NCBI GenBank assembly: GCA_028820795.1
Contig: JAPPHK010000246.1
Coordinates: 1-35,708 of the forward strand
Reading direction: 5' to 3'
Length of the DNA stretch: 35,708 nt
DNA from: Nitrospinota bacterium
GTDB taxonomy: Bacteria; UBA8248
Shown here: one piece after another, positions 6,549 through 34,218 of the stretch
Layout of the letters: each line of letters begins with the position of its first letter
How positions within the stretch are numbered: the stretch's first letter is position 1
The notes under the pieces: model-generated
The model's input: only the letters and a program-made list of their open reading frames with translations
What the model was told of the DNA's origin: nothing
Database searches by the model: none
Program-made: the position numbers and the translations under genes

Positions 6549-6831
6549 GGATTGGAGTCCTCTGTTGGTTTTGCCTTTCAACTCCTGAGCGTGGAGGAAA
6601 ATAGAAAGGTTTTGGGAATCTGTCAATTCAGGGGTGATTTGTGGGCGTGTTCGTCATTTCGGCATGCGCCGGAGTGACGGGCGAAAACTACCCGCCCTTA
6701 CGAAGCTGCAGACGATCCCTCCCTCTTCGGTCGCAATTCCTCCTTCTTCAGGCGGAATTGACCTCCGTTTGTCTCGCCCATGCGGTTGTCTTATCATCAA
6801 GAAGAGAACGCATTGCGATGAGGATAAGAAA

Positions 6832-7146
6832 GTGAATTCGCAAGTTTCCATCCCCAAAGAGAGGCTCGCTGCATTTTGCCGCGCGCACGGCGTGAAGCGT
6901 TTCGCCGTCTTCGGCTCGGCGCTGCGTGAGGATTTCGGACCCGAGAGCGACGTCGACGTGCTCGTCGAGTTCGAACCGGGCCGCGCGCCGGGGCTGCTGG
7001 GCGTGGCCGGCATGGAGCGGGAGTTGTCGGACCTCTTCGGCGGGCGGAAGGTGGACCTGATCGAACGCAGCGCCGTCGAAGCAAGCCGGAACTACATTCG
7101 CCGTGAATCGATACTACATTCCGCCGAGACCATCTATGCGGCGTGA
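6832..7146 (+). CDS. MNT-type nucleotidyltransferase domain protein (MntA-like antitoxin)
   Basis: GTG start; motif FGSALREDFGPESDVDVLVEF (GSxxRxDxxxxSDxDxxV). Confidence 0.85.
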   Translation: MNSQVSIPKERLAAFCRAHGVKRFAVFGSALREDFGPESDVDVLVEFEPGRAPGLLGVAGMERELSDLFGGRKVDLIERSAVEASRNYIRRESILHSAETIYAA

Positions 7147-7477
7147 CGACGCCTGGCTGCTCGACATGTTGCTGGCTGCGCGCGACGTGGTGGATTTCGC
7201 TCGTGGTCGGACGCGGGACGATCTGAACACGGACCGCCAGTTGGTCTTGTCACTGGTCAAATCTATCGAAATCATCGGCGAGGCCGCCGCCCGCATCAGG
7301 CAGGAGACCAGAGAGGCTCACCCCGAGATTCCCTGGCCGAAGATCATCGCCATGCGGAATCGACTCGTGCATGCATATTTCGAGATCAATCTGAGGCGCG
7401 TGTGGGAAGTTGTGCAAAATGACCTTCCCGACCTGATCTCCCTCCTCGAACCGCTCGTCCCGCCGGAGAAGACGTAG
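7136..7477 (+). CDS. HEPN / DUF86 domain protein (HepT-like toxin)
   Basis: Overlaps the MNT gene; SLVKSIEIIGEAAARI...PWPKIIAMRNRLVHAYFEINLRRVW contains the Rx4H HEPN motif. Confidence 0.87.
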   Translation: MRRDDAWLLDMLLAARDVVDFARGRTRDDLNTDRQLVLSLVKSIEIIGEAAARIRQETREAHPEIPWPKIIAMRNRLVHAYFEINLRRVWEVVQNDLPDLISLLEPLVPPEKT

Positions 7478-8986: not shown

Positions 8987-9028
8987 GCACGTTCGCCACC
9001 GTCGATTTGGCTTGCATGTCCCGATTGT

Positions 9029-9042
9029 AAATGATATCATTT
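9029..9042. promoter_or_regulatory. Perfect palindrome AAATGATATCATTT upstream of the FitAB-like operon (candidate operator)
   Basis: 14-bp perfect palindrome 43 bp upstream of the RHH antitoxin start. Confidence 0.6.
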
Positions 9043-9085
9043 TGATGGCATTTGATTTTGAGAAAAGCAGAACTTGGAGGCAATC

Positions 9086-9343
9086 ATGGCGACCGTCAAT
9101 GTGCGAAAACTCAAAGAGAATGTAGTGCGATGTCTTAAACAGCGCGCGGAGGCGAATAATCGTTCCTTGGAGAGCGAGGTGCGTCACATTCTCGCCGCCG
9201 CCGCTGAAGATGACATGATGGCGAAACGTAAATCCTTCCTGGAGTTGTCTCTGAAACTTCGCCAGAAGACGAAAGGCCGCGTGCGGGTACCCTCGGAAGT
9301 CCTCATCCGTGAAGATCGAGAGAGCGGGTATCGGAATATCTGA
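9086..9343 (+). CDS. FitA/VapB-like ribbon-helix-helix antitoxin
   Basis: MATVNVRKLKENVVRCLKQRAEANNRSLESEVRHIL is a FitA-type RHH; directly abuts the PIN gene. Confidence 0.85.
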   Translation: MATVNVRKLKENVVRCLKQRAEANNRSLESEVRHILAAAAEDDMMAKRKSFLELSLKLRQKTKGRVRVPSEVLIREDRESGYRNI

Positions 9344-9774
9344 TGCGTTTCGTGGTGGACGCCAGTGTCGCGGTCAAGTGGCTGATCGAGGAAGAGGGGT
9401 CTGAATCAGCGAAGTGGTTGCTCGAAGGCGAGCATGAATTACATGCGCCGCGTTTGATGGTGTCCGAAATCGCCAACGCACTGCGGCGCAGGACTCGGAT
9501 GGGCGATGTTCAGCTTGGCGAGGCGGGTGAACTGGTTTCCATTGTTCCTGAAATGCCTCTCCACTGGGCGGATGATGAAAAAGTCTGCGCGGACGCGGTT
9601 CGTATTGCGATCGCACTCGATGCGTCGGTTTATGATTGCATCTACCTCGCGCTTGCGCATCGCGTCGGCGCAAAACTGGTGACGGCGGACGATCGTTTTG
9701 TAAACGTCGTGGCGGCGACCGAGCATGGTGGCGCTGTGACGACACTCGCTGACTTGGCCGTGGAATCGGAGTGA
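9343..9774 (+). CDS. PIN-domain toxin (VapC/FitB family)
   Basis: FVVDASVAVKWL, SEIANALRRR, VYDCIYLALAHR, LVTADDRFV acidic PIN motifs. Confidence 0.92.
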   Translation: MRFVVDASVAVKWLIEEEGSESAKWLLEGEHELHAPRLMVSEIANALRRRTRMGDVQLGEAGELVSIVPEMPLHWADDEKVCADAVRIAIALDASVYDCIYLALAHRVGAKLVTADDRFVNVVAATEHGGAVTTLADLAVESE

Positions 9775-27490: not shown

Positions 27491-28224
<734 letters not shown>

Positions 28225-28228
<4 letters not shown>

Positions 28229-28827
28229 AGATTGTTCTCGCGAGCGGGAACCCCGGAAAAGCGCGCGAGGTGCGCGCTGCCCTCGAGGGAATGAACGTCG
28301 AGATGCTGCTCCCCGATGAGGCGGGGTTTGAATTCGAAGTCGAAGAGACCGGCTCCACCTATTCGGAAAACGCGCTCATCAAGGCGCGGGCCGCGTGCGA
28401 GGCGAGTGGCCTTCCCGCCCTCGCCGATGATTCGGGCGTGGAAGTGGATGCGCTGCCTGGCGAGTTGGGCGTACGCTCCGCGCGCTTCGGCGGCGAGGGA
28501 CTGGACGATTCGGGGCGCAACGCGCTCTTGCTCGAAAGGATGCGCAATGTGCCTGAAGATCGGCGAGGCGCGCGCTACGTTTGCGTGCTGGCCTACGTGA
28601 AGCCGGATGGGTGGTTCGGTTTTTTCGAGGGTGTGCTGCACGGGCGAATACTGCGCGCGCCGCAAGGGGAGGGCGGCTTCGGCTACGACCCGCTCATGTA
28701 TCTGCCAGAGCACGGCTGCGCCGTCTCGGAGCTCCCGCTTGGGGTCAAAAACCGCATCAGCCACCGGGGTCTCGCACTCGCGGAGTTCCGCGCGTGGCTG
28801 GCCCGAGAGGCGGCGGATGGGGCATAA
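28225..28827 (+). CDS. rdgB: XTP/dITP diphosphatase (RdgB/HAM1)
   Basis: IVLASGNPGKAREVRAAL; ALADDSGVEVDALPGELGVRSARFGGEG; GGFGYDPLMYLPE; overlaps rph by 4 nt. Confidence 0.95.
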
Positions 28828-28935
28828 TGCGAAAAATTGAATGGTATTCGGTTGTGGCCGCTGCAGGGTGAGAGTGGCCGATGATAAGAACGGCGCACAT
28901 GCTTTCATGGAGCGCGAAGACAGGAGATATCAGGA

Positions 28936-29613
28936 ATGTCCAGGATCGAGATGATACAGCCCGAAGAAGCGGACGCCGACGTGGCCCGCTTCTATGAGGC
29001 CACTACCGCCATGCTCGGCCGCGTGCCGCATTCGATGCGGGTGCTGGCCAAAACCCCCCACGTCGCCAAGGCCATGCTCCCCTTCGTGGCGACGCTCCAG
29101 CGCGAGGGCGGCGGCAGCGTGCTCAAGACCAAGATCAAGGAGATGGTGGTCATCAAGACGAGCCATCTCAACGGGTGCGCCTACTGATACGCGCACAACA
29201 CGTCGCTTGGTCAAGCGGCCGGCATCAGCGAAGAGCAGGTGGAAGTCATCGGCACCGACGGCTACATGGAATCGGATCTGTTCACCCCGCGCGAGAAGGC
29301 GGCCATCCTGTGGGCGGAGCACGTGACGCTCAACACCGCGCGCTCGAGAGACGACGTGTTCGAGGAGGTGAAGAAACATTTCTCCGAAGCCGAGATCGTC
29401 GAACTCACGATGGTGAGCGGGCTGTTCAACCTCTTCAACCGCTACATGGATTCGCTCGGCATCCCGCTCGAAGAACAACGAGAGGTCGACAAGATCAAGA
29501 AATCCCTTCACCTCGACGGCGGGAAGGTCAAGACCTACTACAAGACGATGGTGGAGCACTGGCCGGATGAATACCCCGAACCCGATGCCCAGGACCCGAA
29601 CAAGAGCGCTTAA
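28936..29613 (+). CDS. Carboxymuconolactone decarboxylase/AhpD-like protein, putative selenoprotein (Sec84 encoded by TGA at 29185-29187)
   Basis: ORFs 28936-29187 and 29239-29613 are in the same frame with a single TGA: EMVVIKTSHLNGCAY-[TGA]-YAHNTSLGQAAGIS. The TGA occupies the second Cys of the C-x-x-C active site. Upstream Shine-Dalgarno present; nothing else is disrupted. Confidence 0.85.
29202..29219 (+). promoter_or_regulatory. Candidate bacterial SECIS hairpin
   Basis: GUCGCUU-GGUC-AAGCGGC: 7-bp stem (one G-U) with GGUC loop starting 21 nt after the UGA. Confidence 0.65.
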
Positions 29614-32515: not shown

Positions 32516-33613
32516 TTAAGATTGGACCAGCAGCTGAAATGCGTATCCCGCGACCAGCGAACCCAGTATGCCGCCCGCCAGGTAGATGGCAAGAACTTTT
32601 CGTTTCACCAGCGCCCATACGCCGGCCATGGCGGGGACGCACGTGACGGGACCCGCGATGAGGAAGGCCATGGCCGCGCCCCCGCCCATTCCTGCGGCAA
32701 GAAGCCCCTTGGTGATGGGGATGGCGGCGACGCCCGAGGTGTAAAGCGGAATTCCCACCGCGCTCGCCAGGGGGATCGACCAGGGATTCTCGCGTCCGAG
32801 AATCGCGCCTATCCACGCAGGGTCGATGTAGTGGACGATCAGCGCTTCTAAGAGAAACGCCACGGCCAGCCACTTGGCGAGATAAAGGCCAACGCTCCTC
32901 GCCTGAAGGGCGAATCCGCTCAGAGAAGGCCTGTTCATTCGGGTATCGTCCCGGGCATCTTGCGCCCTCGGCGCGACGATGTTCCTCAACTCGCCATCGA
33001 GCCTCCCGCCCCGCCCGATGAGGTAGGTGGCGTAGCCCGCGGCCGCTCCAAGAACGATGGCGCTGACTAAGCGCGCTATTGCGTAGTCCGTGCCCAGAAC
33101 GCCCGCTGTCAGCACGAATTTCTCGGGACTCATCAGGGGAGAACTGATCCAGAAGGCCATCACGGGTCCCAGCGGCACGCCGCTTGCAAACATGGCGGCG
33201 ATCAGGGGGATGACGCCGCAGGAGCAGAACGGAACCACCGCGCCAACTGCAGACGCGCCGGCGATGGCCATGCCCTGTCGTTTGTCGAACACCGCTTTTA
33301 TCTTGTCCGCGTATCCGGCGACGGTGACCCACGCCGATACCCCCACGCTCAACAGGAAAAAGGGCGCGATGCCCCAGAAGCTGTTCAGCATGAAGAGGAG
33401 ATTTCGTTTGATCTCGGCGGTAATGTGGCCGGCGGAAACCTCGCGAACCGATCCTGTCCACAACATGAGCGCCAGCAACACAACCATCGAAATGAAGCCC
33501 CACAAATAAGGAGAAGTCCATCTGGCTTTCGGTTTGGGCGCGCAGCAGGAGGCCTCATCAGCAGGCGAAGCAGTAGTATCAGCCGCAGGGGCTGTTTTGA
33601 TTTCGGTTATCAT
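32516..33613 (-). CDS. Permease (DUF318/ArsP-like)
   Basis: Multiple TM helices; VVPFCSCGVIPLIAAMFASGVPLGPVMAFWISSPLMSPEKFVLTAGVLG signature; start MITEIKTAPAADTT at 33613. Confidence 0.88.
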   Translation of the reverse strand: MITEIKTAPAADTTASPADEASCCAPKPKARWTSPYLWGFISMVVLLALMLWTGSVREVSAGHITAEIKRNLLFMLNSFWGIAPFFLLSVGVSAWVTVAGYADKIKAVFDKRQGMAIAGASAVGAVVPFCSCGVIPLIAAMFASGVPLGPVMAFWISSPLMSPEKFVLTAGVLGTDYAIARLVSAIVLGAAAGYATYLIGRGGRLDGELRNIVAPRAQDARDDTRMNRPSLSGFALQARSVGLYLAKWLAVAFLLEALIVHYIDPAWIGAILGRENPWSIPLASAVGIPLYTSGVAAIPITKGLLAAGMGGGAAMAFLIAGPVTCVPAMAGVWALVKRKVLAIYLAGGILGSLVAGYAFQLLVQS

Positions 33614-34095
33614 GAAGAAAACTCCTTGGCGGCGCGCGCGAGTTTTTCTATCGCGCTGACGATTTCTATTTGCTCTTCGGGAGAGAACCTCTCGAGGAGC
33701 GCGCCGTCCTCGAGCGCACAGCCTTCCGATATGGTCGTGTGAAGCGCCTCGCCCGCTTCGCTCAGACTCAAGCAGCACACGCGGCGGTCTCCTTCCTTCA
33801 TACAGCGTTCAATCAGTCCGCGTTCGACAAGCGGGTCCGCGCAACGCGTTACCCCGCTCGGAGTAAGGCGCATTCGCCGGGCGATCACTCCCATGGAGAT
33901 AGGGCCCGCATCCGCGTCCGCGAGCATGTGGAGAAGCGTCCACTGGTTGTGGGTGATATCGTGGCGGCACACAGCTTCTCTATCTGCGGGTTTTTTCTGA
34001 TGGAATAGAAGGTTGAGCGCCACGTGAAGACGCGCGCCGAGGTCGTGGGTTTCAAGCGCTGTCCCCTCGCAACAGGCTTGCGGCGTGATGTCCAT
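33610..34095 (-). CDS. MarR-family transcriptional regulator, Cys-rich
   Basis: THNQWTLLHMLADADAGPISMGVIARRMRLTPSGVTRCADPLVERGLIERCMKEGDRRVCCLSLSEAGEAL; 4-nt stop/start overlap with the permease. Confidence 0.9.
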   Translation of the reverse strand: MDITPQACCEGTALETHDLGARLHVALNLLFHQKKPADREAVCRHDITHNQWTLLHMLADADAGPISMGVIARRMRLTPSGVTRCADPLVERGLIERCMKEGDRRVCCLSLSEAGEALHTTISEGCALEDGALLERFSPEEQIEIVSAIEKLARAAKEFSS

Positions 34096-34178
34096 TCTTT
34101 TCGAAACTCCCCTATGAATACGCTCTCGGATAATCGTATACGAATCCTTGCCCGGGTGCTGACTTTTATTAATAATTA

Positions 34179-34218
34179 TCAAATATGAAATAAATCAATA
34201 TTTGACTAACTCAAATAT
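34179..34218. promoter_or_regulatory. Candidate MarR operator
   Basis: TCAAATAT (34179-34186) ... ATATTTGA (34198-34205) perfect inverted repeat, plus a third half-site TCAAATAT (34211-34218). Confidence 0.6.

Follow-up and report, generated by a model that had tools for sequence, protein, structure and literature searches.

A predicted selenoprotein gene of the AhpD family

Positions 28936-29613 (forward strand) of the window, by which we mean the whole 35,708-nucleotide stretch of Nitrospinota DNA analysed here, almost certainly hold a single functional selenoprotein gene, in which the decoding of an in-frame TGA as selenocysteine (Sec) is supported by comparative genomics. The gene comprises 225 codons, with an ATG at 28936, the in-frame TGA at 29185-29187 and a TAA at 29611-29613, and a Shine-Dalgarno-like AGGAG (28922-28926, forward strand) is found 9 nt before the start codon. 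When TGA is translated as Sec the product has 225 residues, with U at position 84 in the motif NGCAYUYAHN and a C-terminus of ...DPNKSA; the sequence is exactly as given in the preliminary description, which had proposed one gene running across the TGA. The same description placed the stop at the second Cys of the CxxC motif of the AhpD/carboxymuconolactone decarboxylase (CMD) family, and the codon does occupy precisely that position: residue 84 aligns with Cys in the PDB relatives PA0269 and Atu0492, and Cys is also found there in a set of Cys homologues, the closest of these being proteobacterial (54-62% identity), with TGC at the Sec codon. The active-site stretch spans codons 69-88 (29140-29199, forward strand) and includes E69, C81, Y83, U84, H87 and N88. 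C81, U84, H87, N88 and G92 are invariant across the 108 distinct Sec proteins compared; residue 69 is Glu in 78 of the 108 and is not universal among the paralogues.

The window contains 265 TGA codons flanked on each side by 22 open codons, and only the one at 29185 is conserved in all nine syntenic stretches, which represent six genera with peptide identities of 70-93%; such a pattern is hardly a matter of chance. Across seven same-genus orthologues dN/dS is 0.085 before the TGA and 0.121 after it; purifying selection acts on both flanks.

Standard gene calling would see two ORFs at this locus, as had been foreseen, and this would agree with a pseudogene or a sequencing error, in which the TGA is a real stop between two dead fragments. 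Against this, the same TGA is present in 107 retrieved copies from 18 genomes, the selection is two-sided and the SECIS hairpin described below is conserved. Sequencing error could be excluded without read pileups, since seven genomes of the same genus, each assembled separately, have the same TGA, and given the conservation this explanation was rejected as having practically no chance of being correct. A genome-wide reassignment of TGA, or its suppression to Trp, Cys or another amino acid, would also account for the open frame, which is the one point in its favour. However, TGA still stops other genes in the window, as seen in rph which terminates in ATGA (28225-28228), and a genome-wide code change is thus discounted; within the AhpD-like family TGA is confined to one catalytic Cys site, and both a SECIS and Sec machinery are present. 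This possibility was likewise rejected, and we consider it scarcely credible.

The SECIS hairpin

A bacterial SECIS hairpin was identified within the coding region at 29204-29217 (forward strand), with the stem CGCUU/AAGCG and the apical loop GGUC (29209-29212); in the window copy the pairing reaches 29202-29219. The assignment was based on covariation, a synonymous-codon null and a position control, and the hairpin fits the published bSECIS model in loop size, position of the G and distance from the UGA, 21 nt (PMC13188914). In 108 copies the apical (closing) pair is U-A (T-A) in 56, C-G in 49 and T-G in two, and is therefore a standard pair in 107, and standard pairing at the next two stem positions is seen in 104 and 103 copies. 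For the Gly in the loop, GGT is the codon used in 88 of 108 copies, as against 115 of 1148 at other Gly codons (Fisher 4e-58, although Fisher values overstate the evidence because the sequences used for covariation are related). The mean hairpin energy of -8.65 compares with -5.26 in synonymous shuffles, that is, the hairpins are stronger by 3.4 kcal/mol on average, and the signal is strongest at the TGA, with none at the other offsets. There is little hairpin signal in ten Cys homologues and none in two Ser/Cys copies. When placed on the tree, the apical pair has switched independently about six to eight times with no discordant change (sign test p about 0.03-0.13).

The hairpin also leaves its mark on the protein. 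The residue following Leu-Gly is Gln (CAA) where Leu has a codon with a final T, but Arg where that codon ends in C, an alternation for which the SECIS accounts. The aligned SECIS set is a clean case in which RNA structure limits the choice of both codon and amino acid (Leu CTT with Gln CAA, Leu CTC with Arg CGN).

Selenocysteine machinery

The preliminary description had predicted that the host would carry the Sec machinery, and each of the checks it proposed that was run gave a favourable result. A tRNA-Sec with anticodon TCA was found in the window's own genome (75.9 bits), but selA, selB and an over-cut-off selD were not found in its assembly (79% complete); all three are present in relatives. 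Across the 18 genomes, matches over cut-off were obtained for selA in 15, selB in 14 and a selD with one in-frame TGA in 15, and selA adjoins selB where relatives carry them. In the window's own genome one contig (C318, length 9124) breaks about 1.4 kb before selA, its very end (9009-9124) matching the initial 116 bases of a congener's selA locus, so that the missing selA probably lies in an assembly gap. Matches resembling selB in the same genome (at most 87.8 bits) were not counted, as the cut-off is 242 and control genomes without Sec score alike.

The selD genes of the lineage (L195-L204) themselves contain an in-frame TGA, in the motif AGGUGSK, and SelD is predicted from sequence to be a selenoprotein in its own right. 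When the retrieved flanks were scanned across genomes for other Sec genes, the AhpD type and the Sec site of selD came up again; we make no claim for the remaining candidates, which resemble noise from overlapping frames. The largest selenoproteomes in the literature number 57 and 63 genes (PMC13188914). Two tRNA-Sec matches (L074 and L079) were found on separate contigs of one genome, G012, and may reflect either a duplication or mixed strains.

Distribution and evolution of the family

In a search of 78 genomes, the 18 that belong to the same taxonomic family as the window all carried members of this gene family, mostly as several paralogues with one in-frame TGA, and a phylum-level search returned the same 18 genomes, the family and phylum samples coinciding. 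The alignment holds 131 places, 118 with C..U, ten with C..C and three with S..C; most but not all copies were retrieved, and several loci were retrieved twice among these places. Where Sec is lacking, the rows are those of Cys homologues found beyond the lineage, of distant paralogues that have Cys, and of two Ser/Cys copies. The retrieved Sec copies number 107, with 1-13 per genome (five in the window's own genome and 13 in G012), and a Pfam CMD search yielded a few further TGA copies beyond this set. The preliminary description therefore understated the case, as this gene is one among the many paralogues of a large Sec family. Named records among the relatives are MAGs called Nitrospinota or Nitrospinae, one SAR324 and some that are proteobacterial, and one named relative was binned from the sponge Aplysina aerophoba; the carrier lineage is mostly marine and sponge-associated, with several Sec-AhpD copies per genome.

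In the best trees the proteobacterial Cys homologues (L105, L106, L107, L109 and L110) and the two Ser/Cys copies are nested inside the Sec clade, and these topologies suggest a change from Sec to Cys, possibly after a transfer to Proteobacteria. However, this suggestion should be treated as a lead, because a single clade of Sec rows was not rejected (AU p 0.137). Tandem paralogues in G012 (L119 and L034/L150) have Ser-x-x-Cys in place of Cys-x-x-Sec, have also lost His87 and lie beside Sec copies; they look like decayed or repurposed versions.

The gene is preceded by rph (RNase PH, 27491-28228) and, directly upstream, rdgB/HAM1, encoding an NTP pyrophosphatase (28225-28827), both on the forward strand and both conserved. 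A DehI-like gene (PF10778; 34271-35287, forward strand) also accompanies the selenoprotein gene in other genera; in one of them (G009) it follows on the same strand with 39 bp between the two. The order moaA, HlyD-RND (in most), rph, rdgB, ahpD(Sec), DehI-like is conserved across several genera; as rph and rdgB are housekeeping genes, this synteny indicates the age of the locus and not its role. Elsewhere in the window, an ArsP-type permease and a MarR regulator (32516-34182, reverse strand) are conserved in the same-genus stretches and in one further genome (G011). To the eye, two gene pairs at 6634-7477 and 9074-9774 resemble toxin-antitoxin pairs (nucleotidyltransferase/HEPN and VapBC-like), and short peptides repeated in overlapping ORFs at 1-900 (FFNSP, MRPLHSL) suggest a repeat array at the start of the contig.

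Structural relatives and putative function

The product belongs to the CMD family (Pfam PF02627, 1e-8; 35.5 bits against a gathering cut-off of 23), but falls below the cut-offs of more specific models: TIGR01926 (70.8 against 81.8 bits, with nearly the entire model aligned), NF053654 (71.6 against 310) and NF041238 (50.6 against 175). The latter two, GroundWater_YciW (seleno)protein and AhpD_rel_CFYUT, are AhpD-fold kin matched over much of their length, of which the window protein is not a member. The statement in the preliminary description that AhpD-like selenoproteins have been reported from marine metagenomes agrees with the literature, in which AhpD-like (TIGR01926) and AhpD-like 2 (pfam02627) proteins with a CxxU motif are already known, with Sec at the second Cys as here (PMC13188914, PMC2398784); what differs is that the present genes are multiple paralogues within a single lineage and share an aligned SECIS.

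AlphaFold modelled the read-through product (30-row alignment) with a mean pLDDT of 93.1 and a helix at 82-94 that spans residue 84. Among solved structures, Foldseek placed the debrominase Bmp8 and peroxidase-related proteins of AhpD type nearest. In PA0269 of Pseudomonas aeruginosa (2o4d, 2ijc; TM-score to target 0.86) the motif is CAYC where the window protein has CAYU, and the first Cys is preceded at a distance of 12 residues by a Glu, as here. E69, C81, Y83 and U84 are in register with the corresponding residues of the AhpD proton-relay peroxidases; PA0269 differs in having Cys in place of Sec, in being shorter and in the position of the relay His, which is at Cys+4 and not, as here, at Sec+3.

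Comparative genomics thus supports a reading of the in-frame UGA as Sec through tRNA-Sec(UCA) and SelB, directed by the SECIS hairpin starting 16 nt downstream of the UGA. Sec84, in place of the second Cys of CxxC, would pair with C81 as a selenenylsulfide couple, C81-x-x-U84, the AhpD fold around it being all-helical. Sec84 may then act as the nucleophile, reducing a hydroperoxide or other electrophile, with C81 resolving the Sec84 intermediate and E69, Y83 and H87 relaying protons, after the relay proposed for PA0269 and Mycobacterium tuberculosis AhpD (PMC3141380). Selenol-based peroxidase or oxidoreductase chemistry of the AhpD type is, on balance, the probable function; the peroxidase part is by analogy, because E69 is found in only 78 of 108 proteins and the relay His is at +3 and not +4.

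Two other functions have to be weighed. The couple could instead exchange selenenylsulfide and disulfide with a partner, as AhpD does as adaptor for AhpC, without reducing peroxide itself. The AhpD of M. tuberculosis is such an adaptor and PA0269 by itself is weakly peroxidatic (PMC3141380), but no AhpC-like gene adjoins the window gene, the conserved neighbours being rph, rdgB and the DehI-like gene, and we regard an adaptor role as possible but the less likely outcome. A reductive dehalogenase of the Bmp8 type, using selenium as thyroid deiodinases do on organobromines of a sponge host, would fit other observations: Bmp8 (6ohi, 6ohj) matches over its full-length fold and is the best Foldseek match by E-value (6ohi, 1.3e-6; profile match 1e-14), its CMYC motif and His at +3 share CxYC/U and the His spacing with the window protein, a DehI-like neighbour is conserved, and a relative comes from A. 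aerophoba. However, Bmp8 is a Cys enzyme of 20% identity with Trp at the place of Glu69, the query TM-score is higher to Deinococcus radiodurans AhpD (0.70 against 0.64), PA0269-type peroxidases outscore it by sequence, and DehI-like domains do not necessarily dehalogenate; a debrominase-like role is accordingly unlikely. The DehI-like neighbour and the likeness to Bmp8 may be recorded as a hint of halogen chemistry. The broadest scenario, that a marine lineage of phylum rank, many of its members sponge-derived, has a selenium-dependent AhpD-fold family which detoxifies or remodels host organohalogens in a deiodinase-like manner, with paralogues diverged by substrate and a transfer to Proteobacteria followed by Sec-to-Cys change, is speculative and very unlikely as a whole.

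Implications

In a sponge metagenome SelA and SelB have been reported to co-occur in most symbiont bins (PMC5649159). The literature searched contained no paper on the expanded Sec-AhpD family of this lineage, nor any naming selenoproteins together with Nitrospin*. What is new here is a subfamily that lies under every NCBI model cut-off and is amplified to as many as 13 retrieved copies per genome. Annotation pipelines would fragment this gene and its sister copies, and so obscure an enzyme family that seems to be prominent in a symbiont lineage, and the up to 13 Sec-AhpD genes retrieved from a single genome offer a natural series in which to ask how selenium benefits an enzyme of the AhpD fold.
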